Assembly: GCF_013346935.1 (NCBI RefSeq)
Contig: NZ_JAAEEB010000002.1
Coordinates: 1 to 64,000 of the forward strand
Origin: Lactobacillus melliventris
Lineage (GTDB): Bacteria; Bacillota; Bacilli; Lactobacillales; Lactobacillaceae
Direction: 5' to 3'
DNA length: 64,000 nt
Shown: piece after piece, positions 29,746 to 63,621 of the stretch
How the letters are laid out: every line of letters starts with the position of its first letter
Position numbering within the stretch: the stretch's first letter is position 1
Position numbers and translations under genes: made by a program
Notes under the pieces: model-generated
Databases searched by the model: none
Seen by the model: only the letters and a program-made list of their open reading frames with translations
What the model was told of the DNA's origin: nothing

Positions 29746-30603
29746 TTACAAAAATTTAATTAGTACACCCACCGTAGCTACTAGAGTCAATATTAGAATT
29801 ACTTTGTTAGCGCTCATCCTTTTAGATGAAATCAGCCAAAAAGTAAATAAAACTGCAACTAGAGGTAATAGTCCCGGGAAGAATCCATCAATAATTGTTT
29901 CAAGTGGCTTGGTTTGTGAACCAAAAGGAATCTTGACAGTTGTTTTTAAAGCAATTGTCGAAGCGGCAAGACCACCGATAACAATTGTACCTAAAACTGT
30001 AAACATGTTCGTCAGACGCTTAGCACTTTCACCAACAATTTTGTCTACAGCAGACACACCTAACTTATAACCACCTTTAAAGCAAACTACTTCTACAATA
30101 GTAATAATCACCGCATAAGTTACGATGTAAAATAGCGGACCTAAGGGACTGCCACCTTTAGATAGACCCATGGCAATTGATAAGAGCGTGGGAATTAGAA
30201 TACCCTGCATCAGTGAGTCACCAATACCAGCTAAGGGTCCCATCAATGAAGCCTTAACATCGACCGGCATCTCTTCGCTGACGTTAGTGTTGCCCATACC
30301 AATTTGTTCTTCTAGTGAGGCTACAATACCATTAACCAGCTGTCCGGTTTGTGGTTCCGTATTATAAAAAGGCGAATGCCGCTTAAGCAACCGCTGATAG
30401 GCTTTATCATTATTTTTATAATATTTATTGCCTAAAGGCATATATGAAACCGCCCACGCAGCGCCGTGCATTTTTTCATAACTCATAGCAGATTCAGGCA
30501 AGAACATATATCTTAAAAAAATTGACCGTAATTCTTTTTTAGTTAAGCGCTCAGGTTTAGCTGGTTGGACTACCGACGTTTGTTTATCATCTTGATTAGC
30601 CAT
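29746..30603 (-). CDS. PTS system mannose-family IID component
   Basis: 285 residues. Starts with a charged segment then KKELRSIFLRYMFLPESAMSYEKMHGAAW, the IID N-terminal block, and carries GPLAGIGDSLMQG; membrane helices near the C-terminus. RBS AAGGAGG. With IIC it forms the membrane channel of a mannose-type PTS. Last gene of a five-gene operon (GntR, IIA, IIB, IIC, IID). Sugar unknown; the DeoC-type aldolase upstream is the only metabolic clue. Confidence 0.93.
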   Translation of the reverse strand: MANQDDKQTSVVQPAKPERLTKKELRSIFLRYMFLPESAMSYEKMHGAAWAVSYMPLGNKYYKNNDKAYQRLLKRHSPFYNTEPQTGQLVNGIVASLEEQIGMGNTNVSEEMPVDVKASLMGPLAGIGDSLMQGILIPTLLSIAMGLSKGGSPLGPLFYIVTYAVIITIVEVVCFKGGYKLGVSAVDKIVGESAKRLTNMFTVLGTIVIGGLAASTIALKTTVKIPFGSQTKPLETIIDGFFPGLLPLVAVLFTFWLISSKRMSANKVILILTLVATVGVLIKFL

Positions 30604-30615
30604 TATTTTGCCTCC

Positions 30616-31461
30616 TTAGAATAAATCTGCATCCTCGTATTCATCTTCTGTTTGGATAGCTTTTTCTGCATCAGATGAATTACTACTATTATTACTGCTA
30701 GTTCTACCAGATATCTGGTAAACAAGATAGGCAATTAAAACAGCAATAAATACTAAGCCAATAGTACTCATTTTGGCAAAAGCAATCATTGCAAAACCAA
30801 ATAGAAAGTAGATTAATTGCAGCTTATTTTTAATTAGCATATTCATTAGCATTGCAATACCAAGAGCAGGCAGTAATCCGCCCAGTACTGTGATAATACT
30901 GGTTATTTGCGTTGGAATTACCTTGAGTAAAGCTTCAACTGCTCCTCTGCCAAAGTATATTGCAGCCCATATTGGCACTGCACGTACCAAGAAAGTAATA
31001 ATTTGTGGCCAAACAACTTGGTCCATAATAAGAGCATGTTTATTAAAACGGTCAATGTCACGATCGGCTCTATGATTAAAATAGGAAAAGCCTGCCATTC
31101 TTAAGTTATAAAAAATCAGACCAAACGTTTGACCAATAAAAATAGCGAGGGTAACTGCAATTGCAGGATCTTTAGTTGTAGCCATTGCTAATCCAATTCC
31201 GCCATAAGAAGCATAAGTGATTTCCGTACTTGAAGTTCCACCAGTATGCATTGTCGCAATGAAAACCGCTTGTACGGCTAACCCACAAAGTATACCTGCT
31301 TTAACATCTCCAAAAATCAAACCACACAAGAAGCCTGCAATTAAGGGTCTGCCTAAAATATAGAATCCGTAGGCAACGCCACCCATAACGATACTATCAA
31401 CTGCTCCCAAGTACCCGAGAATACCAACTAAAGCAGCTTGCCAAAAAAGAGCCATATTCAT
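30616..31461 (-). CDS. PTS system mannose-family IIC component
   Basis: 281 residues, multi-helix. Typical IIC features: AVDSIVMGGVAYGFYILGRPL and GDVKAGILCGLAVQ. The C-terminal ~30 residues form an acidic Ser/Asn-rich tail, longer than in many IICs. RBS AAGGAGGGA. Twelve bases before IID and two after IIB. Confidence 0.93.
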   Translation of the reverse strand: MNMALFWQAALVGILGYLGAVDSIVMGGVAYGFYILGRPLIAGFLCGLIFGDVKAGILCGLAVQAVFIATMHTGGTSSTEITYASYGGIGLAMATTKDPAIAVTLAIFIGQTFGLIFYNLRMAGFSYFNHRADRDIDRFNKHALIMDQVVWPQIITFLVRAVPIWAAIYFGRGAVEALLKVIPTQITSIITVLGGLLPALGIAMLMNMLIKNKLQLIYFLFGFAMIAFAKMSTIGLVFIAVLIAYLVYQISGRTSSNNSSNSSDAEKAIQTEDEYEDADLF

Positions 31462-31463
31462 TT

Positions 31464-31970
31464 TTATCCCTCCTTGGCTTTCAACTCATCATAGTGCTTT
31501 TTAACCTCAGGCCACGTCTTTTTCTTTTCATCTGGAATCAGTTGGAAAGAAATATTTATGCCATGGTTATACATGTAGTCAAATGCTTCATAATCTTTAT
31601 CATCAAGGGCTAAAGTTCTTTCAACGACTATTGCCCCCTCACGCGTATTCATTGGTCCTACATTCAGTTCATTACCCCAATCAGCTCCATTTTGCAAAAG
31701 TTTAGCGAAAGTTTGAGGTGAATTTGATATTAAGAAAAAGTTTTTGTTTGACTGTACCCCCTTTTTAATTATTTCTGGACCTTTATCATCGCTAAATATA
31801 CCTACTTTTAGGTTTCCAGCTGCTGCTTTTAAAACTTTTGTTCTGAGTTTATCGTGAATGATCTTATCACCCACTACTAAGAAACCATCTATGGGTCTTT
31901 CCTTCGACCATCTTGTCGTGGTTTGACCATGTATCACACGGTCATCCACTCTAGCTAATGTTATTGCCAT
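31464..31970 (-). CDS. PTS system mannose-family IIB component
   Basis: 168 residues, soluble. Phosphorylated His14 in the motif RVDDRVIHGQTTTRW; C-terminal SFQLIPDEKKKTW block. Receives phosphate from IIA and passes it to the sugar. Gap to IIC is two bases. Confidence 0.93.
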   Translation of the reverse strand: MAITLARVDDRVIHGQTTTRWSKERPIDGFLVVGDKIIHDKLRTKVLKAAAGNLKVGIFSDDKGPEIIKKGVQSNKNFFLISNSPQTFAKLLQNGADWGNELNVGPMNTREGAIVVERTLALDDKDYEAFDYMYNHGINISFQLIPDEKKKTWPEVKKHYDELKAKEG

Positions 31971-31990
31971 AGAGAAACACCTTCCTCTAG

Positions 31991-32404
31991 CTAAAATTCA
32001 ATATCTTGATTTGTGTCAGCTGTTTCTTTAGCTACACAAACTCCTTCCTTACCGAATTTTTCAGCTAAATCTGTGATTTCATCTAAACTCGGCTTGCTAG
32101 TTAGTGACAGGCCGACTTCCAAAAGCATAGGCAAATTAAGACCCGCTACAACTCTAATCTTTTGCGGGTTTTGAAGATATTTTGCAAAGCACTCGTTATA
32201 TGGCGAGCCACCCTTAATATCGCAAAGGATTAATAAATCATCTGTTTCTTGATCTATTATGTGAGCAAGTTCTTTTTTAAATTGACCAGTATCATCAGAA
32301 CTTAGTCCTAAATACTTAATCTGATTAGTTGAACCTGCAAGCATTTGATAACTGTTATAAATACCTTTTGCCATATTCCCGTGTGTTGTAATTAAGATCT
32401 TCAT
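31991..32404 (-). CDS. PTS system mannose-family IIA component
   Basis: 137 residues. Active-site His8 in ILITTHGNMAKGIYNS; DIKGGSPYNEC block. Phosphorylated by HPr. It is the only IIA-Man in the window, and the second mannose-type PTS (59251-61400) has none, so it could serve both. Confidence 0.93.
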   Translation of the reverse strand: MKILITTHGNMAKGIYNSYQMLAGSTNQIKYLGLSSDDTGQFKKELAHIIDQETDDLLILCDIKGGSPYNECFAKYLQNPQKIRVVAGLNLPMLLEVGLSLTSKPSLDEITDLAEKFGKEGVCVAKETADTNQDIEF

Positions 32405-32414
32405 TATTTGTACC

Positions 32415-33155
32415 TTACCTATATAAAATAGAAGTGACTTTATATTGATCAGTTCTAAGCAAAGCGTCAGAGCATTCTATCGGCTCATCATCCGCTGCAA
32501 AAGTAACTTGATTTAATTCTAAAGCAGCATCATTTGGTGCCAATTCCATTATTTTTGCCTGTTTTTTGTTTAGATTACGTGCTGAAAAATTCCTAATACC
32601 ATATTTAATTTTTATTCCTGCATCTTTTTCTATTGCAGCAAATAAAGCAACATTATTAAAATCTACTTTTGCTATTTTCGGACACTTATCCAGAGAAATC
32701 CAGTTAAAAGTAAGTATAGCCGGAGTGTCTTCAACACTTCTGAGACGCACCAAATATAATACTTCCTGTTCTTTACCTATTTTTAACTTTTTCTGGATTT
32801 CCTTCGTAGGTTTGACAATCTTCTTTTCTATTACTTGCGTGGAAAAATTAATATTTTTTGCTTTCATAGTTTCGGCATACGAGACTAATTCTTGCGCAAA
32901 AGGATAAGAAATCTGCGGTTTTGTCACAAAAGTTCCCTTACCTTGGACTTTTTCCAAAGTACCTTCTTTGACTAGCAAAGAGATTGCTTTTCTAACAGTC
33001 CCTCGTGCTACTCCGAGATTGTCAACAAACCATTTTTCAGACGGGATTTTGTCGCCCGGTGTTAATATTTTTTTATTAATGTCTGTCTTTATTTGGTTTG
33101 CAATTTGCTGATAAATGGATATTGGAGAATTATTATCTATTGATATATTACTCAT
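32415..33155 (-). CDS. GntR-family regulator with UTRA domain
   Basis: 246 residues. Winged-helix N-terminus (YQQIANQIKTDINK, PSEKWFVDNLGVARGTVRKAI) followed by a UTRA effector domain, the HutC/TreR subgroup, which usually senses the phosphorylated sugar. First gene of the PTS operon, ten bases before IIA, so it is very likely the local repressor and autoregulated through the dyad at 33217-33227. Confidence 0.93.
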   Translation of the reverse strand: MSNISIDNNSPISIYQQIANQIKTDINKKILTPGDKIPSEKWFVDNLGVARGTVRKAISLLVKEGTLEKVQGKGTFVTKPQISYPFAQELVSYAETMKAKNINFSTQVIEKKIVKPTKEIQKKLKIGKEQEVLYLVRLRSVEDTPAILTFNWISLDKCPKIAKVDFNNVALFAAIEKDAGIKIKYGIRNFSARNLNKKQAKIMELAPNDAALELNQVTFAADDEPIECSDALLRTDQYKVTSILYR

Positions 33156-33190
33156 AGGGATTCATTCCTTCTTTAAAAGTTATTTATTTA

Positions 33191-33228
33191 TAGTATAATC
33201 TTTGTTTTTATTATAAAGTATTATACTA
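33191..33228. promoter_or_regulatory. GntR operator(s) in the PTS operon promoter
   Basis: AGTATTATACT at 33217-33227 is a perfect dyad around a central T. A degenerate copy (AGTATAATCTT) starts at 33192, so arms TAGTATAAT and ATTATACTA face each other 20 bp apart. The position just upstream of the first gene suits a HutC-type repressor. Confidence 0.55.
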
Positions 33229-33259
33229 TTCACCCTAAAAGCAATATAGCTAAATAAAA

Positions 33260-33952
33260 TTAATCAGCTATAGAATCATTCTTTTCCTTTATCCCAGTGA
33301 TAATTTGGGGACCTGCGCTCGTACCCAGTAATGATGCTCCTGCTTCAAGCAAAGATAGAGCCTGCTGTCTGGTTCTAATACCGCCGGAAGCTTTTACTTC
33401 ACATTTATCTTGAGCAATTCTCTTTAATAATTGAATGTCATCAATGGTTGCGTGACCACCTTTACCCCAACCACTAGAGTTTTTTAGATAAGTAGCACCA
33501 GCATCCCTGGCAAGTTCAGCTGCCTTAATCTTTTCTGGACGTGTCAACATACCAAATTCGAGCATAATTTTAACAATCTTGCCATTTGCCGCCTTAACTA
33601 CTGCAGCAATTTCATTTTGGTATTCATCGTACATACCAGCTTTTAAAAAACCAACATTAGGCATCCAGTCAAGTTGATCCGCACCATCTGCAAAGCATTG
33701 TTGAGCCTCAAACACCTTAACTTCTGTCTTTTGTGCTCCCATTGGAAAACTCATACATGTAGCAACTTGAATGTTGGTTCCTTTTAGTTCTTTCTTTGCA
33801 AGAGTGACCCATTGCGGCTGAATCATTACACCATTAAAACCAAAGTGCTTACAATCATCACACAAACCTCTTATATCATCCGGTGTTAATTCCGGATTAA
33901 CATTAGTATGTTGAATCTTAGACGCCAATTCTTTATCCGACAAATTTAACAT
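33260..33952 (-). CDS. deoC: Deoxyribose-phosphate aldolase (DeoC/FbaB-type class I aldolase)
   Basis: 230 residues. TIM-barrel class I aldolase: Schiff-base Lys in TYLKNSSGWG, second Lys in VKASGGIRT, phosphate-binding C-terminal GTSAG. The Asp block reads ADQLDWMPNVG, not the ADEVDVV form of enterobacterial DeoC, so it belongs to a divergent DeoC branch. Expected reaction: 2-deoxyribose 5-phosphate to glyceraldehyde 3-phosphate and acetaldehyde, but another substrate is possible. A perfect cre site lies 44 bp upstream and a PTS operon starts about 100 bp downstream on the same strand. Confidence 0.82.
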   Translation of the reverse strand: MLNLSDKELASKIQHTNVNPELTPDDIRGLCDDCKHFGFNGVMIQPQWVTLAKKELKGTNIQVATCMSFPMGAQKTEVKVFEAQQCFADGADQLDWMPNVGFLKAGMYDEYQNEIAAVVKAANGKIVKIMLEFGMLTRPEKIKAAELARDAGATYLKNSSGWGKGGHATIDDIQLLKRIAQDKCEVKASGGIRTRQQALSLLEAGASLLGTSAGPQIITGIKEKNDSIAD

Positions 33953-55034: not shown

Positions 55035-56501
55035 TTAATTAAGTGTCAGCAAATAATTATAGCCATCTGCAAAATTAATATTATTGGCCAAGCGGTTTCC
55101 CTTATTACTGTAACCAGTAAACTTAAAGGCTAAATATTTTGCTTGGCTGACTAAGGCTTTATCTACTTGCCATTTGATTGGTAAAGTTTGCAAAGGCTGT
55201 AAATGAGCAATATCAGTTACATCCTTAGCAGCCACTACGTTTTTAGCTGCATCCAGTAATACTAGTTCTGCTTTATTAATTAAGACAGGAGCAGCCAGGC
55301 CATAATTAGTTAGATTAACTTGATAGTCGATATTCTGTTCGTCATTTTGATAGCTAATATCTTTAACAGCTAAACGGTAGCCCAGATAATCCCTGATATA
55401 TTCATACCAAGAACGACTTACTTCATTATCATTAGCGTCTTTAAACCATGATTTCTGATACGGTAATTTATATTGATCTAAAAGTGCAGGTGTTACTAGT
55501 TGCCGTTTCCAAGCACTCAAAGAATAGTCCTTGCCGTCTTCTTTGTAATTATGAGCTATACTCAATGAAGTAAAATGATGAGCTGCTAGACGTTGAGCAA
55601 TCAGTGGTGCAGAAATTAACTGACCGTTATTGTCTGATGCATTGGCAGAACCCCAAATCATTTCACCGTCAACCGGTACAGTCTGAGATTGTTCTGCCAT
55701 CGCCTGCCATTCAGCAGAATTAGGATCAGCACCGGCAGTATTCCAAACATGTGGACGACCAATCAAGTAATCATCATGGAATCCAACTCTTTGCCAATCA
55801 GAACTCTGCGGGGCAACATTCCGTGACTTGATATTGTAATATCTCACTTGAATAAATAAATCTTTAGGGGTATTAGCTAACATAGCCTGGAGAATTTCTT
55901 TTTCATTCATACGGCTGCGGGCACCGCTGTCCCACTCTCCCCAAGCTCCAATAAACCCTGCTTGTAAATTCGCTATTTGATCGCGATGCTGGGCAATCCA
56001 GGGTGCTAGCTGTTTAATATGTGCAACTACCTGCTCAGTCGTAGGTTCCTGAGACTTTGGATGAGCATCGTCCCAAATATAAGCAAAGCGCAATACAGCC
56101 TGCAAATGGTATTGCTTTAACTTTTGGAAATATTGATCCATATTATTAAAGGCAGTTTGATCTAATGGCTTGTTTTTATAATCTGTTAGATAAAAGTATA
56201 CTTGTGCAAGACGCGGGTTATCAGCAGAAAATGTAGCTACCGCATTTTGCATTTGCGCTATCCCGGTTTTATCTGCATTAGCCCATAAGCCCTTGCCGGT
56301 CTTAACATTTAAATTTAACTCTAAACGAAAGCCGCGATCAGTATTGTTAGCCATTTCTTGATTTTGTTGTTCGGTTAGGGGCTTTTCGTCATATCCAGTA
56401 ACGGTTGCTGCCTTTACTGAGGATAAACTTTGCTGACTTGATAAAAGAAATAGTCCTAAAAATGCAACTATTAAAGTTAGTTTCTCAAATATTTTTTTCA
56501 T
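55035..56501 (-). CDS. Exported DUF4874/DUF4832 protein, putative polysaccharide-active enzyme
   Basis: 488 residues from ATG 56501 (GAGGAATC upstream). Signal peptide of ~30 residues (KKIFEKLTLIVAFLGLFLL ... VKAA). N-terminal DUF4874 region (NTDRGFRLELNLNVKTGKG, VYFYLTDYKNKPLD) and C-terminal DUF4832 with a beta-rich tail. Two Glu are shared with its paralogue: FIGAWGEWDSG (about residue 190) and PVDGEMIWG (about 265); both sit in contexts resembling the acid/base and nucleophile positions of TIM-barrel glycosidases. Function not known; extracellular breakdown of a glycan is an inference from signal peptide, Glu pair and neighbouring PTS. Confidence 0.8.
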   Translation of the reverse strand: MKKIFEKLTLIVAFLGLFLLSSQQSLSSVKAATVTGYDEKPLTEQQNQEMANNTDRGFRLELNLNVKTGKGLWANADKTGIAQMQNAVATFSADNPRLAQVYFYLTDYKNKPLDQTAFNNMDQYFQKLKQYHLQAVLRFAYIWDDAHPKSQEPTTEQVVAHIKQLAPWIAQHRDQIANLQAGFIGAWGEWDSGARSRMNEKEILQAMLANTPKDLFIQVRYYNIKSRNVAPQSSDWQRVGFHDDYLIGRPHVWNTAGADPNSAEWQAMAEQSQTVPVDGEMIWGSANASDNNGQLISAPLIAQRLAAHHFTSLSIAHNYKEDGKDYSLSAWKRQLVTPALLDQYKLPYQKSWFKDANDNEVSRSWYEYIRDYLGYRLAVKDISYQNDEQNIDYQVNLTNYGLAAPVLINKAELVLLDAAKNVVAAKDVTDIAHLQPLQTLPIKWQVDKALVSQAKYLAFKFTGYSNKGNRLANNINFADGYNYLLTLN

Positions 56502-56514
56502 AATGATTCCTCGG

Positions 56515-57945
56515 TCATAATTTAAACCAATTGATGCCATCTGCCCACTGACACTGATTAGCCAGACGTGCCGTACTACCATTAGTAGCAAGCAGTTTGA
56601 CTCCGACTTTGTCAGGCTGATCAGATTTAGTCAATGGAATAACCGTAGTTATTTCATTATTAGTTTGTAAAGTGCTTTTTTCTACTAAAGCTTTACCAAT
56701 AACATCCTGCTGTTTATTCACAGCCAGCAATTCTATTTTTGCCAAAGCTAAAGGTGCAGCAAAACCTGTATTTTTCAGTGTAAGGTAAACTGCAGCATTT
56801 AAAGCAGAATTATAGCTAATTTGTGTAGTCTCTATGCGATAGCCTAAATAATCACGTAAATATTCAAAATAATTTCGTTTAATTGGCTGCTTTTTCTGAT
56901 CCCAAAACCATGAAGATTGATATGGCCAATGCTTTTCATCTAATAAACCCGGTGTAACAGGAACATGCTTCCAATATTCAAATGAACCTGTTTGAGGGAA
57001 TTTAAGCCCTTCTGGTTTGCCAGTTCTCTTTAATTCATTTTCTAGCGTCACGTTAAAATATGAATTAGTTTCTATTTCATGGTAATTATGCGCAATACTC
57101 AAAGTAGTGAAATGATTCTCAACCATTCTTTGCGTCATCAATTCAGGAGCGACATATTTTGTTTCTAAATACATAGGATTGGCAAATAACCAAATGCTTT
57201 CCCCATCAACAACTGTATTTTTTGATTCTCTTAATAGTTGCTGGTATTCATTAGATTCATGATTTTTACCAGCCGTATTCCATTCGTGGTCAATACCAAT
57301 TAGAAAATCATCATGAAAGCCAATTCGCTGTTCATTCCATTTTTCAGTAACATTTATATTACGGTTTTTAATATTTAAGTAGCGTACTTGAACCGTCAAA
57401 TCTTGGGGAGAATTTAACAACAAACTATGAAGAATAGTTGATTCATCAGTAGTATCACGAGCATGTTGCGACCACTCACCCCAAGGGCCAATGATTCCTG
57501 CTTGTAAAGCGTGAATCTGCCTGCGGTGTTCCTGCAGCCAACCTGATAACTGCTCCAAATGTTGCTGTACCCTGTGTACACTAGGAGCTTGTCTATAAGG
57601 CCTCTTATCTTCAGAAATATATGCAAAACGCAGCAGTGCCTTTAAGTTTAACTTAGCAAGTTCGTCAAAAAAGGCATTCATGTGGTTAAAAGCTTGTGCA
57701 TCCAGTGGTTTATGTTGATAACCTGTTAAGTAAAAATAAACCTGCACTATTCGCGGCTGATCATCGGTATACAGTGACGCTTCTCTTTTCAAAGCAGCGA
57801 TAGCATCTTGATCAGCATATTCATAAATGCTCTTACCTGTTTTTACATCTAAATAAACTTCAAAGCGAAAGCCACGATCAGGATTTATTAATAAAGTCTT
57901 AGTCTGATCTCCACTTAACTGCTTGGGATAATAATTTGACATCAT
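56515..57945 (-). CDS. Cytosolic DUF4874/DUF4832 paralogue
   Basis: 476 residues. Clearly homologous to the next gene (NPDRGFRFEVYLDVKTGKS, VQVYFYLTGY, IIGPWGEWSQH, VVDGESIW, HNYHE) but without any signal peptide, so it stays in the cytoplasm. It lies 13 bases after the LacI-type regulator gene on the same strand and 13 bases before the exported paralogue. It carries an insertion in the middle (KRTGKPEGLKFPQTGSFEYW). Probably processes the imported, perhaps phosphorylated, product; this is inference. Confidence 0.8.
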   Translation of the reverse strand: MMSNYYPKQLSGDQTKTLLINPDRGFRFEVYLDVKTGKSIYEYADQDAIAALKREASLYTDDQPRIVQVYFYLTGYQHKPLDAQAFNHMNAFFDELAKLNLKALLRFAYISEDKRPYRQAPSVHRVQQHLEQLSGWLQEHRRQIHALQAGIIGPWGEWSQHARDTTDESTILHSLLLNSPQDLTVQVRYLNIKNRNINVTEKWNEQRIGFHDDFLIGIDHEWNTAGKNHESNEYQQLLRESKNTVVDGESIWLFANPMYLETKYVAPELMTQRMVENHFTTLSIAHNYHEIETNSYFNVTLENELKRTGKPEGLKFPQTGSFEYWKHVPVTPGLLDEKHWPYQSSWFWDQKKQPIKRNYFEYLRDYLGYRIETTQISYNSALNAAVYLTLKNTGFAAPLALAKIELLAVNKQQDVIGKALVEKSTLQTNNEITTVIPLTKSDQPDKVGVKLLATNGSTARLANQCQWADGINWFKL

Positions 57946-57957
57946 TGGCCTCCAATA

Positions 57958-58968
57958 TTAATTGCCAGTACTTTCTCGCAAAATTAGTTTAACTTCTAAT
58001 AACGTTGTAGCGGCGCGCGTCTTTTTTTCTATTATGTCTTCTCTAATTAAATGGACAGCAGTTATACCCAGGTCTTTTTCCGGAACAGAAACTGATGACA
58101 ATCTGGGAATATAATATTGCGCCATTTGAATATTATCGAACCCAATAATATGGTAATCGGCAGGAGCATGAAAACCTTTTGTATGCAATTCCTGCATTAT
58201 TCCAATTGCCAATTGATCATTTCCAGCTAAAATTCCTTTGGGTAAAGTAGGTAATTGTGCAATTTCTTTACCCGCCTGGACGCCATCTTCAATGCTCCAA
58301 CCCGGAGTAAGAATTGAACACTCATCTTGATCATGCAGTTTCATCCACTCCCGATAGCAATTTAAACGAACCTCACCTTTTGCTTGAGTTTTTTCTCCTT
58401 GCAAATTAGTCATATAACGGGGACCACCAACATATACAATATTGGTTTGAGCAAATTTTTCTAGTTGTGTTAAAGCTTCTTTTACTCCAGCAGTTAAATT
58501 AGCATTAACCAGCTTGACGGAATTATTTTTATATCTTGCTTCAATAATGACGATATTAGAGTTTAATTTTTTTAGTTCGCTAATGGCTGATTCGGACAAG
58601 CCGCCGATAACAATCACGCCGTCCCAATAATACAGTCCATCCCAAAATGAACTATCCAAAGAGTTATTTAAATAATAGATAGAACTCAATGTCATTTTTT
58701 CTCTTTTGAGTTCTTCAATGATTCCCTGTTTTATTTGTTGGTAATACGTATATTCTGCTACTTGATCCAAGTCCATAGTTGTTAATACACCAACAACTGG
58801 ACATTTTTTACTTTTATTTTTGATATGATAATTTAATTTTTTTGTAGCCGCTAAAACTTTGGTCCGTGTTTGATCAGTAACACTTAAAGAAGTGTCATCA
58901 TTTAATATTCGTGAGACTGTACTTGCTGAAACACCTGCTAACTTAGCTACCTGTCTGATATTAGCCAT
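57958..58968 (-). CDS. LacI-family transcriptional regulator
   Basis: 336 residues. HTH NIRQVAKLAGVSASTVSRILND, hinge and sugar-binding domain. Cotranscribed with the two DUF4874/DUF4832 genes; the PTS operon ends 282 bp upstream on the same strand. It probably senses an intermediate of the same pathway. A 10-bp palindrome TGTTATAACA (58996-59005) lies in its own leader region. Confidence 0.93.
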   Translation of the reverse strand: MANIRQVAKLAGVSASTVSRILNDDTSLSVTDQTRTKVLAATKKLNYHIKNKSKKCPVVGVLTTMDLDQVAEYTYYQQIKQGIIEELKREKMTLSSIYYLNNSLDSSFWDGLYYWDGVIVIGGLSESAISELKKLNSNIVIIEARYKNNSVKLVNANLTAGVKEALTQLEKFAQTNIVYVGGPRYMTNLQGEKTQAKGEVRLNCYREWMKLHDQDECSILTPGWSIEDGVQAGKEIAQLPTLPKGILAGNDQLAIGIMQELHTKGFHAPADYHIIGFDNIQMAQYYIPRLSSVSVPEKDLGITAVHLIREDIIEKKTRAATTLLEVKLILRESTGN

Positions 58969-59122
58969 CTTATCTTCTCGTCTTTCATATTTGGGTGTTA
59001 TAACAGGTGCTATTAATATAAATTTCTTAAAAATATAAACTTTTAGAACCTGATATTCTACACATAATTGTTGCTATTACGGCATTTTTGCAATTATGAT
59101 AACAAATATTTTTTGCAGTTCA

Positions 59123-59170
59123 AAGAAAAGACGGTTGTATTATTATTGAAAAATACATCCGTTTTTTCTT
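59123..59170. terminator. Terminator after the PTS operon
   Basis: ACGGTTGTATT / AATACATCCGT flanked by AAAGAAAAG and TTTTTTCTT, in the 282-bp gap between IID and the LacI gene. The rest of that gap is AT-rich with no gene. Confidence 0.75.
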
Positions 59171-59250
59171 ACTTTACCTGCTTAAATTTAGTAATATGCT
59201 TTTTCTCAGCAGATAATCTGATTACTTATTAATTTCTATATTTCATGCTA

Positions 59251-60087
59251 TTAGGCAACAACTTTCAAGTTGAACAAAACAATAGCCAAGATTAGAACAA
59301 ACCAAGTTGCTCTAGTTGAGTTCATATGTTTGCGATCCAGTAGCCAATAAATAAAGGCAACTAGTAAAACTGGCATAAGCGATGGCATAATCTGATTAAA
59401 GATATCCTGCAATTTCATCGAAACTTTCCCAGCTCTAAAGATGAACGGAATCTTTAACGTAATAACAGTTGGAATTAAAGCTCCTACAACCGTTACCCCC
59501 AGCAAAGTTGCTGAGTCAGTCAGTGCATTAAGCTTAGAACTCATTGAAGTAACTAAGTTGACACCTTGCTTGTAGGCAAATGGCATCCAAGTATAAGCCC
59601 AAATGTAGAGAACGCCTAGTGCAACCATCCATAAAATAGCGCCAAACGGATTACCTTTAAGGGCCATGTATGATGCAATCGCACCAAAGATAGTTGATTG
59701 AACGGTACCTAATAAAGTATCACCTACGGCAGCAAATGGTCCCATAAGACCAGTTTTAATACCTCTTACACCGTCAACTGACTTAATACCCTCTTTTTCT
59801 TCAAGAGCAATATCGACACCTTGGATAATAGAACCCATATGCGGACTAGTGTTAAAGTATTCAGACTGCACCCGCATCATTTTCTTCATATCTTCAGGCT
59901 TGTCACCATACAACTTACGTAAGATTGGCATTTGTGAACCAACATAACCTGGAGCCATCATAGTTTCGTAGTTCCAGCTTAATGCAGAGGTAAAAATCCA
60001 GCGTAAGTTAGCGCTACGAATATCTTTTTTAGTTAACTTATGACTTTGCTCCGTCGTAGTCTTTTCTGTAGTATTATTCTTCATCAC
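59251..60087 (-). CDS. PTS system mannose-family IID component
   Basis: 278 residues. KKDIRSANLRWIFTSALSWNYETMMAPGYV start block, GPFAAVGDTLLGTVQS, C-terminal membrane helices. Overlaps the IIC gene by 14 bases. Last gene of a IIB-IIC-IID operon that lacks IIA. Confidence 0.93.
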   Translation of the reverse strand: MMKNNTTEKTTTEQSHKLTKKDIRSANLRWIFTSALSWNYETMMAPGYVGSQMPILRKLYGDKPEDMKKMMRVQSEYFNTSPHMGSIIQGVDIALEEKEGIKSVDGVRGIKTGLMGPFAAVGDTLLGTVQSTIFGAIASYMALKGNPFGAILWMVALGVLYIWAYTWMPFAYKQGVNLVTSMSSKLNALTDSATLLGVTVVGALIPTVITLKIPFIFRAGKVSMKLQDIFNQIMPSLMPVLLVAFIYWLLDRKHMNSTRATWFVLILAIVLFNLKVVA

Positions 60088-60907
60088 CGGTAATTACTCC
60101 TTTATCATCAATACCCATTTCAGCAGCTTTTTGTGTATCTAAGCCATTACTGTCGCCACCAGATTGGTTCTTATTATGAATGATAGAATTATAATGATTA
60201 ATGGCAAAGCCGACTCCGATCAGCGCTACACCAAGCATTGGCACATTTAAGTAAGCAGCAGCTACAAAGCCAAAAATCATGTACGCACCAAATTTCTTAA
60301 TAGGCAGATAATGCATTAAGATGGCAATACCAACAGCTGGTAACATAGTTCCGGCAGATTTTAATCCACCCATTAACCATTGTGGCATGTAATTCAGCAC
60401 ATTTTTGACAAATGCTTCACCAAAAATTAGCACCAATAATACGGGCACTGACCGTGAAAGCCCCCACGGAATAGCCCCATAAAGACTATTTCGTACAACA
60501 GCTTTATCATCGTTACGATCGATTGCCTTATCAATTCTGTGTGCAAAGTAGGTATTAGCAAAACGAGCCAAAATATCAAGTTGCACCATCAATAGGCCAA
60601 CAGGAATAGCAACACCAATACCGTAGTTAATTCCTTTTCCTGAAATATGTGCAATTGCAGTACCTATGATTGCTCCAGTAGCATAATCAGGAATCGAAGC
60701 ACCACCAAAAGTACCGACACCCAATATCATTAACTGTAATGTTGCCCCTACGGCCAAACCTAATTTCATATCACCGACAATCAGTCCTGCAATTAATCCA
60801 GCGTTAACTGGGTTACCAAAACCAATACCAACTGTGACAATTTCATTGATTTGGAAGAAAGCAAACAAAGACAGCAAAATTATTTGAACTACACTCAATG
60901 AATTCAT
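60074..60907 (-). CDS. PTS system mannose-family IIC component
   Basis: 277 residues, multi-helix; EIVTVGIGFGNPVNAGLIAGLIVGD and GASIPDYATGAIIGTAIA. Acidic C-terminal tail. Starts two bases after IIB. Sequence differs strongly from the 30616 IIC, so the substrate is probably different. Confidence 0.93.
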   Translation of the reverse strand: MNSLSVVQIILLSLFAFFQINEIVTVGIGFGNPVNAGLIAGLIVGDMKLGLAVGATLQLMILGVGTFGGASIPDYATGAIIGTAIAHISGKGINYGIGVAIPVGLLMVQLDILARFANTYFAHRIDKAIDRNDDKAVVRNSLYGAIPWGLSRSVPVLLVLIFGEAFVKNVLNYMPQWLMGGLKSAGTMLPAVGIAILMHYLPIKKFGAYMIFGFVAAAYLNVPMLGVALIGVGFAINHYNSIIHNKNQSGGDSNGLDTQKAAEMGIDDKGVITGDEE

Positions 60908-60908
60908 A

Positions 60909-61400
60909 TTATTTCTCCATCCGTTTATTTAATTCAGACATAAAGTCTTCTCTAGAATCGTTCGGGACCATCTGGTGGTAAAGCTTTACTCCCCGAGCAT
61001 CAAGTTCTTTAAAAGCCTTTATTTCTTCGTCATTTACTCCCACGCTCTTGAACAGTTGCAGTCTGCCTTCACCACTTGGCAAGTTACCAACGTTAACTTC
61101 TTTAATTGGTACTCCTGCATCAACCATCTGAACCAGAGCTTCCGGTTCACGTGTAATAATAAATATTTTTTGGTCGGCGTAACGGCCTTGAACAATATTG
61201 TTACTTGCACGATCCGGTGGCAAAATACTTAAAGCTGCCTGGGTAGGACGAGCTAACTTCAAAGCTGTTTTTTCCAAGTCATCTTTAGATACTTTATCGC
61301 CAACAACCATTAGTCGTTCTGCTCCTAATTGCCCAGTCCACACACGAGCTACTTGACCATGAATTAGACGGCTATCAACTCTGACATTTACTAACTGCAC
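60909..61400 (-). CDS. PTS system mannose-family IIB component
   Basis: 163 residues. Active His14 in RVDSRLIHGQVARVW; C-terminal YHQMVPNDSRED. First gene of the operon; RBS AAGGAGG. Phosphate must come from an IIA encoded elsewhere, such as the one at 31991. Confidence 0.93.
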   Translation of the reverse strand: MQLVNVRVDSRLIHGQVARVWTGQLGAERLMVVGDKVSKDDLEKTALKLARPTQAALSILPPDRASNNIVQGRYADQKIFIITREPEALVQMVDAGVPIKEVNVGNLPSGEGRLQLFKSVGVNDEEIKAFKELDARGVKLYHQMVPNDSREDFMSELNKRMEK

Positions 61401-61418: not shown

Positions 61419-61432
61419 TGTTATCGCTTACA
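61419..61432. promoter_or_regulatory. cre site at the IIB-IIC-IID operon
   Basis: TGTTATCGCTTACA matches the cre consensus at every position, just upstream of the IIB RBS. Confidence 0.85.
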
Positions 61433-61447
61433 TCAACTTACACTAAA

Positions 61448-61490
61448 ATTATAGTTTATATATTTTGTTTTGTAAACATAATTTTTTTTA
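61448..61490 (-). promoter_or_regulatory. PTS operon promoter with GTTTAC-type operator repeats
   Basis: Minus strand TTTACA (61476-61471), 17 bp, TATAAT (61453-61448). TGTAAACA (61471-61478) and AGTAAACAA (61489-61497) are candidate sites for the LacI-type regulator. Confidence 0.6.
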
Positions 61491-61566
61491 GTAAACAACA
61501 TTGACATTGATTTGTTTTATTAATAAGCTAATCTTAAACAACTATTATTAAAGAAAGCGTGCCGGT

Positions 61567-61959
61567 ATGATTACAGTTCAACGATCAAAAAATAATATTT
61601 CAATGGGTAAACCTACAACTGTAATAGTCAATGGTTTAAGGGTAGGCAGTATCGCTGCAGGTTATGCTTTAAAACTAAACTTAAAAAAAGGAGACACACT
61701 GCAACTCACCCAAGGCGGATTAAATCGCTCGCCCAAAATGATTATTAATAAGACTGACGCTCATTATAAAGTTATTCCTAATCCCAAGTCCTCTGTCTTA
61801 ATAGCCGTCATGGTCGCAGCTTTATTATTAATCCCGCCTATGATTAAAAGCTATGTTCCCTTTTCACAAAATGTTTCAGCAATTATTATTTTTTTAATCT
61901 TTTTACTTATTGAATTAGTTTTCAATTTCCGCTGTGGTTTACTTATCGAAGAAATTTAA
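61567..61959 (+). CDS. Membrane protein of unknown function
   Basis: 130 residues: soluble N-terminal half with predicted beta-strands (TTVIVNGLRVGSIAAGYALKLNL, KGDTLQLTQGG) and two C-terminal helices (about 77-92 and 100-122). Divergent from the PTS operon. RBS weak. I do not recognise the family. Confidence 0.65.
   Translation: MITVQRSKNNISMGKPTTVIVNGLRVGSIAAGYALKLNLKKGDTLQLTQGGLNRSPKMIINKTDAHYKVIPNPKSSVLIAVMVAALLLIPPMIKSYVPFSQNVSAIIIFLIFLLIELVFNFRCGLLIEEI

Positions 61960-62109: not shown

Positions 62110-63621
<1,512 letters not shown>

Follow-up and report, generated by a model that had tools for sequence, protein, structure and literature searches.

This study asked what two homologous proteins of the obscure DUF4874/DUF4832 type, one predicted to be exported and the other cytosolic, are doing beside a sugar importer in a Lactobacillus. 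The window analysed, a stretch of 64,000 nt of Lactobacillus melliventris (RefSeq assembly GCF_013346935.1, contig NZ_JAAEEB010000002.1, positions 1 to 64,000), belongs to a genome of 2.0 Mb and carries, at 55035-61400 of the minus strand, six genes for the IIB, IIC and IID components of a mannose-class phosphotransferase system (PTS), a LacI-family regulator, a cytosolic DUF4874/DUF4832 protein and an exported one. The locus is probably a two-compartment operon for the utilisation of glycan disaccharides, in which an exported enzyme would make the first cut, the PTS would import the product, a cytosolic enzyme would make the second cut, and LacI and CcpA would control expression. This answer draws on the gene content and its conservation in a second genus, the position of the PTS in a tree of related importers, the predicted fold and invariant residues of the two proteins, and the layout of the promoter.

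Operon organisation and conservation

Pfam assigned the PTS genes (IIB, 60909-61400; IIC, 60074-60907; IID, 59251-60087), the LacI-family regulator (57958-58968, 336 aa), the cytosolic DUF4874/DUF4832 enzyme (56515-57945, 476 aa) and the exported one (55035-56501, 488 aa). By inspection, a signal peptide occupies about residues 1-32 of the exported protein and is absent from the cytosolic one, in agreement with the original prediction of one exported and one cytosolic enzyme beside a LacI regulator and a mannose-type PTS. The most likely start of the exported gene is the ATG at 56501, the TTG at 56591 being an extension by the open reading frame (ORF) caller. Gaps of only 12 nt (LacI to cytosolic gene) and 13 nt (cytosolic to exported gene) make it likely that these three genes form one transcript, as had been proposed. 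The IID and LacI genes are separated by 282 nt with a terminator-like hairpin, which was seen by eye and is absent from the output of the terminator/promoter scan, and the PTS and LacI-DUF-DUF genes may therefore be two separate transcription units in this genome. No IIA was found among the ORFs of the six-gene locus.

The order [divergent gene]-IIB-IIC-IID-(IIA)-LacI-cytosolic-exported is common to Lactobacillus and Lacticaseibacillus chiayiensis, with identities of 83% for IIC, 77% for IID, 67% for IIB and 49% for LacI. The L. chiayiensis locus has an extra gene, for IIA, and, behind the gene of the exported enzyme, it encodes a further exported protein, which has binding-like repeats; as called, its ORFs for IIA, LacI and the DUF proteins share between a few and 20 nt with one another. 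The divergent gene of the window (61567-61959, plus strand) specifies a 130-aa protein of no Pfam family, with a counterpart of 43% identity in the corresponding position in L. chiayiensis. Judged by the exported protein, the closest named relatives are L. kullabergensis and L. laiwuensis (92% identity), in which the two DUF genes, LacI and PTS genes are all present, and L. melliventris can be regarded from these relatives as a Lactobacillus of the honey-bee-gut type, a habitat described for them in published work (PMC8456714).

Farther upstream of the PTS, at 62110-63597, lies a gene for a protein of glycoside hydrolase (GH) family 1, near the 6-phospho-beta-glucosidases (579 bits, under the cut-off of 639). 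In L. chiayiensis another gene stands upstream of the divergent one, which places the GH1 gene outside the conserved unit.

The PTS and its relatives

The genome of the window has 16 matches to mannose-class IIC proteins. The IIC of the operon was placed in a tree of 34 of the 58 IIC proteins of six genomes, the 24 without a locus being left out. The IIC proteins of the window and of L. chiayiensis formed a pair (100/100), which joined two PTSs encoded beside GH29 alpha-fucosidases at weak support (82/76). Together with three AgaS-linked PTSs these made a clade of seven rows (85/83), and a group of nine rows was better supported (97/91). The alf- and gnb-like PTSs of L. chiayiensis thus share a IIC clade with that of the window, where the labels alf and gnb denote GH29 and AgaS/NagA/GH35 neighbours, read with a review (PMC6109692), and not orthology.

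According to that review, the alf PTS of Lacticaseibacillus casei imports fucosyl-N-acetylglucosamine (fucosyl-GlcNAc) without phosphorylating it, the gnb PTS imports and phosphorylates galacto-N-biose, the disaccharides are split by cytosolic glycosidases, and they are probably set free by other organisms (PMC6109692). The alf (alfB-alfR-alfEFG) and gnb loci resemble the operon in having a mannose-class PTS, a cytosolic glycosidase (putative in the window) and a local regulator, and by analogy they appear to be its closest functional counterparts. The differences are that alf and gnb use GH29 or GH35 enzymes, neither of which is encoded in the window operon, whereas the operon uses DUF4874/DUF4832 proteins and encodes an exported homologue itself. 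Membership in a clade with PTSs encoded next to alpha-fucosidase and AgaS genes, of types that act as disaccharide importers in L. casei, fits the scheme of cutting outside, importing and finishing inside that had been suggested earlier; this clade and the conservation of the operon in a second genus make the scheme credible.

A second full mannose-class PTS (IIA, IIB, IIC and IID) was observed at 29746-33952 of the window, with a GntR-UTRA regulator and a DeoC/LacD-like aldolase; its IIC is 31% identical to that studied here.

Two diverged paralogues with a predicted glycosidase-like fold

Both proteins consist of DUF4874 (PF16173) followed by DUF4832 (PF16116), each above its gathering score, with E-values of 2e-41/5e-30 in one protein and 3e-34/4e-22 in the other. 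Up to E 0.1, Pfam gave nothing besides these two domains and NCBIfam gave no family for either protein, and no solved relative was found by sequence (best E 1.3 by phmmer and 0.22 by profile, both to unrelated proteins).

The original prediction held that the two homologues differ mainly in the signal peptide and that both keep WGEW and VDGE motifs. The motifs are present in both; the proteins themselves share only 40% identity over 477 aligned columns. In a 64-row tree, one clade (100, starred) united the exported proteins of the window, L. kullabergensis and L. chiayiensis, while their cytosolic counterparts grouped with those of Schleiferilactobacillus and Enterococcus alishanensis in a second (98, starred). 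The cytosolic copy also has a 25-residue insertion after strand 8 that the exported copy lacks, and a loop of 24-32 residues with a common NEL motif was found in all six cytosolic and none of the three exported Lactobacillales proteins aligned. The low identity, separate clades and cytosolic-only loop indicate that the copies are old, specialised and diverged paralogues, rather than one enzyme at two addresses.

AlphaFold models of the exported and cytosolic proteins (mean predicted local distance difference test scores of 93.4 and 92.1) both showed a (beta/alpha)8 barrel followed by a C-terminal beta-sandwich. In the exported model, with strands counted from the DSSP lines, E189 of the WGEW motif follows strand 4 (176-180), D244 lies inside strand 6 near its end (239-246), and E280 of the VDGE motif ends strand 7 (277-281); the cytosolic equivalents are E157, D213 and E249. 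Together with R138 and R220, the three acidic residues are invariant in all 59 rows of an alignment that spans several phyla (57 rows from homologous loci and two from the window, drawn from a cluster of 104 ORFs, some of them fragments, near-copies or second copies).

In clan GH-A and in beta-amylase, one Glu follows strand 4 and another is at strand 7. The fold search (VIA-align) gave GH5 (Z 14.4) and GH14 beta-amylase (Z 14.3) as tied top matches, with values of about 13-14 for the two families, and the Foldseek matches listed include GH35, GH39 and GH140. The models thus support a glycosidase-like TIM barrel with two invariant Glu residues placed as in GH-A and beta-amylase, much as the earlier proposal of a structure prediction had anticipated. 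That proposal also suggested a retaining family. GH5 enzymes are retaining and GH14 beta-amylase is inverting, with the two Glu residues about 5.5 Å apart in retaining and about 10 Å apart in inverting glycosidases; since GH5 and GH14 tie as fold matches, the retaining and inverting mechanisms are not told apart, and the glycosidase-like barrel of the proposal stands.

The likeness to GH-A and GH14 did not extend to sequence. Pfam gave no GH14, GH-A (GH5, GH35) or GH114, GH135, GH166 or GH191 match in either protein, and hhalign indicated no kinship to one GH14 (E 0.14), two GH35 (E 0.03 and 0.38) or a GH1 sequence; GH14 was compared as a single sequence, the 249 genomes searched having given one strong match (554 bits) and four barely over the cut-off. 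GH114, GH135, GH166 and GH191 alpha-galactosaminidases are likewise barrels, acting on galactosamine polymers, and none of these families was among the fold matches listed (the best 50 of 1,770 for Foldseek and 50 of 1,000 chains for VIA). GH191 and GH114 are described as using an aspartate nucleophile and a glutamate acid/base (PMC12054363), in contrast to the two Glu residues of the window enzymes.

The promoter region

The best promoter-like sequence of the region upstream of IIB is TTTACA-17-TATAAT (61448-61476, minus strand, 11 of 12 positions; the scan returned 31 sites of all qualities against 26.8 expected). Its -35 box is overlapped by a predicted LacI operator, TGTTTACAAAACA (61466-61478, minus strand), found by motif scan, which has 5-bp inverted arms around a 3-nt centre, and a second, degenerate copy lies at 61485-61497 on the same strand. 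Just downstream of the -10 box is a catabolite-responsive element (cre, a CcpA site by consensus; 61419-61433, minus strand), a perfect match to the consensus; the window contains two perfect matches against 0.39 expected, and 6 of 100 shuffles gave at least two. The cre and GTTTAC repeats of the original prediction are accounted for in this way, the repeats as TGTTTACAAAACA and one weaker copy.

The identical 13 bases of TGTTTACAAAACA precede the PTS of L. chiayiensis, where a cre-like sequence can be seen by eye at the equivalent place. With one mismatch allowed, the 14-base TTGTTTACAAAACA has three sites in the genome of the window (this site with one mismatch) and four in L. chiayiensis (the PTS site being perfect), compared with none and two, respectively, for the reversed control. 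A candidate palindromic operator at the promoter and a candidate cre are thus conserved across two genera, and repression of the PTS promoter by both LacI and CcpA would be in keeping with this layout.

Relatives linked to pel operons

A recombinant DUF4832 protein of the Streptococcus intermedius pel operon, SIR_1591, is reported to disperse Pel aggregates, and its authors describe its fold as a barrel with a DUF4832 beta-sandwich (PMC12345266), which is also the predicted arrangement in the window proteins. Pel is described as a repeat of dimers of galactosamine (GalN) and N-acetylgalactosamine (GalNAc) (PMC12345266; PMC9135694). Five intact DUF4832 proteins in our data adjoin pelF/pelG-like genes, PelG being recognised by Pfam at loci L109 and L113, and the pelF/pelG-like neighbours of the other three by the look of their first residues; the neighbours at L109 include a DUF3492 and glycosyltransferase (PelF-like) protein, CotH, VTC and DUF4956. 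The window family aligned by hhalign with two pel-linked proteins at E 1.1e-13 and 1.7e-13, compared with E 0.03-0.7 for 14 control sequences. This homology was measured to pel-linked homologues, the sequence of SIR_1591 itself being outside the comparison.

All five of these distant proteins keep E189, D244, E280, R138 and R220, and so the putative catalytic Glu pair appears to be common to the window family and the relatives of a proven hydrolase, in different surroundings. The original prediction had described the family as not yet assigned biochemically; the reported activity of SIR_1591 (PMC12345266) and the homology, with both Glu residues aligned, have overtaken that statement. Pel-linked relatives, of very low identity to the window proteins, sit in pel operons and gave no DUF4874 match (four tested), whereas the window proteins are paired with a PTS, and their locus is not a pel operon: PelG had no match in any of five genomes with the non-pel form, that of the window included. 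Because the pel-linked proteins are so distant, their substrate need not apply to the window enzymes.

The proposed pathway

In the pathway we favour, the exported DUF4874/DUF4832 glycosidase would cut an extracellular glycan down to short pieces, in the simplest case disaccharides. These would enter through the mannose-class PTS, with or without 6-phosphorylation, by means of a IIA borrowed from elsewhere in the genome, and the diverged cytosolic glycosidase would split them. Of the two putative catalytic residues, the Glu that follows strand 4 may be the general acid, and the one at the end of strand 7 the nucleophile or base. LacI bound to TGTTTACAAAACA over the -35 box would repress the PTS promoter, and CcpA would do so through the cre downstream of the -10 box.

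Several observations weigh against this pathway or the amino-sugar substrate considered below. The AgaS-linked PTS of Schleiferilactobacillus harbinensis falls elsewhere in the IIC tree, and Schleiferilactobacillus homologues of the enzymes had no mannose-class PTS within the stretches examined. AgaS and NagA are not encoded in the window operon, AgaS-family and NagA genes being found elsewhere in the genome, and the neighbours in Bacteroidota include GH3, GH16, GH31 and GH125, which would suit other glycans. The pel-linked proteins are very distant, without a DUF4874 match in the four tested, and do not keep R56, Y141, H317, N318 and E321, and a literature search turned up no activity of a protein with DUF4874. 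With two mismatches allowed, the motif of 13 bases is not rarer in the window than in shuffles (5 versus 7.2), so that the case for the operator depends on the exact copy and its conserved position.

Candidate substrates

We infer, tentatively, that the substrate is an amino-sugar glycan (containing GalNAc/GalN or GlcNAc), of which Pel is one option among several glycans that fit. A mucin-type or other N-acetylhexosamine glycan, from which the pair would release and split a disaccharide such as galacto-N-biose or a GlcNAc-alpha-linked unit, is on the unlikely side as the specific answer. It draws on E. alishanensis, where the cytosolic homologue lies between IIA and a GntR gene with IIC-IID-IIB in a gnb-like locus, alongside GH35, LacD (over the cut-off) and an AgaS-family gene that scores 433 bits against a cut-off of 529, and on a cluster of GH89 alpha-N-acetylglucosaminidases (one member scanned by Pfam) beside the homologue in 8 of 85 loci from all phyla. 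GH89 was within 10 kb of the homologue in 4 of 13 genomes, which hold 24 GH89 matches in all (13 of 14 chosen loci, L031 being left out), and GH123 and GH109 each occurred once among 60 neighbours scanned, GH109 also at L029. By title, seven of the eight GH89 loci are from Bacteroidota and one (L071) from an actinobacterial metagenome-assembled genome (MAG). Yet six of the eight fall in one tree clade, so that they represent few events, and the window operon itself lacks GH35 and AgaS. A plant glycan of pollen (a beta-glucan, arabinogalactan or glycoside) would match the bee-gut habitat, and Firm5 lactobacilli are reported to raise PTS genes on pollen (PMC8456714). The fusion of GH3 to DUF4874-DUF4832 that a Bacteroides finegoldii plasmid encodes next to GH16, DUF2264 near the Schleiferilactobacillus perolens homologue and the GH1 gene just upstream in the window would also suit pollen, but the GH1 gene is outside the conserved unit and the PTS clade and E. 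alishanensis context point to amino sugars, and we regard this source as unlikely.

Equally unlikely is an alpha-1,4 GalN/GalNAc polymer resembling Pel or galactosaminogalactan, made by gut neighbours or bee-bread fungi and used as food by release of disaccharides in the manner of beta-amylase, followed by the PTS and the cytosolic enzyme. The activity reported for SIR_1591, the dimer repeat of Pel, the Glu pair kept in pel-linked homologues and the position of beta-amylase among the tied top fold matches all favour such a polymer. AgaS-family genes of at least 200 bits were also present in 4 of 4 DUF-positive Lactobacillaceae, compared with 19 of 101 sampled (three of the 19 being DUF-positive). 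None exceeded the curated cut-off of 529, and the other, weaker matches are mostly frames of 600-odd aa that are probably GlmS, so that AgaS is a weak marker; nor are the four positives four independent cases, two of these genomes belonging to one genus. The pel-linked proteins form a distant clade that lacks several residues of the window family, and with no PelG in the five genomes of the non-pel form the polymer would need to come from others. A more specific version, in which the pair serves to feed the cell on cationic alpha-1,4 galactosaminoglycans, a beta-amylase-like exported enzyme peeling off GalN-GalNAc disaccharides, a dedicated PTS importing them, and the cytosolic sister, with its extra loop near the active site, splitting the phosphorylated form, is quite doubtful; if it were true, bee-gut lactobacilli would feed on the biofilm matrix of other microbes, whether bacterial Pel or fungal galactosaminogalactan. 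Pel-linked relatives sit in biosynthetic loci of a self-made polymer, which could suggest that the role of the exported enzyme is to remodel the envelope or exopolysaccharide of its own cell and that the PTS is a mere neighbour. Both genera, however, link the enzymes to a PTS and a LacI gene as well as to an operator and a cre, and PelG had no match in the genome of the window, which makes that very unlikely.

A separate AgaS-family locus of the same genome (L130, 5059-14959) contains a GntR-like gene, IIB-IIC-IID-IIA, GH31, a 689-aa protein without a Pfam family and a LacD-like aldolase.

Distribution of the family and its neighbours

Proteins of the DUF4874/DUF4832 type were found in Bacillota, Bacteroidota, Planctomycetota, Actinomycetota and other phyla, and are rare among the relatives of L. 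melliventris. DUF4874 was above the cut-off in 4 of 301 Lactobacillaceae genomes, that of the window included, and DUF4832 in 10 of 395 genomes of the order: three PTS-linked (the window, L. chiayiensis and E. alishanensis), five intact and pel-linked, one fragment (L112) and one 920-aa protein at the cut-off (L114), the last two being left out of comparisons. Matches occurred in 5 of 72,556 plasmid records, in none of the phage records and, weakly, in one viral contig. A literature search found no paper on this kind of locus and none usable on Pel in honey-bee work.

The homologous loci were the best 80 of 441, and the 85 loci analysed count some contigs twice (L008/L017, L009/L025, L010/L027). 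The neighbour scan covered 60 of 167 selected proteins, about one per cluster, with 25 of 71 families listed; GH16, GH31, GH35, GH125 and a GH3 fusion were also among the neighbours. In the fusion, GH3 is joined to DUF4874-DUF4832 next to GH16 in a polysaccharide utilisation locus of the B. finegoldii plasmid (L012, 11872-15969). Directly behind the exported DUF enzyme, Clostridia and L. chiayiensis encode a family of proteins with binding-like repeats (L018, 11420-13036; L017, 11471-13093; L019, L020, L021 and L028), of which one has a dockerin-like end, and proteins of about 800 aa without a Pfam family, in separate clusters, lie beside DUF4832 genes in Enterococcus and Bacteroides (L024, 5158-7560; L034, 11508-13904). 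In an uncultured Lactobacillus MAG (L016, 8572-11477 and 5220-6444), the DUF and some PTS genes are in pieces, through decay or assembly error, and L. apis (L037) has a fragment. One further genome gave a weak DUF4874 match (E 3e-4, below the cut-off), and its locus, when examined, held no such operon.

Significance

The operon represents a known kind of sugar-uptake locus, built here on an obscure enzyme family in which the only activity found reported, for proteins of the DUF4874/DUF4832 type, is that of one distant member. As a single operon supplies the exported enzyme, the importer, the inside enzyme and the regulator, the substrate can be tested in cultivable bacteria, and any compound that acts as inducer of the operon and is also cleaved by the two enzymes would name the activity.

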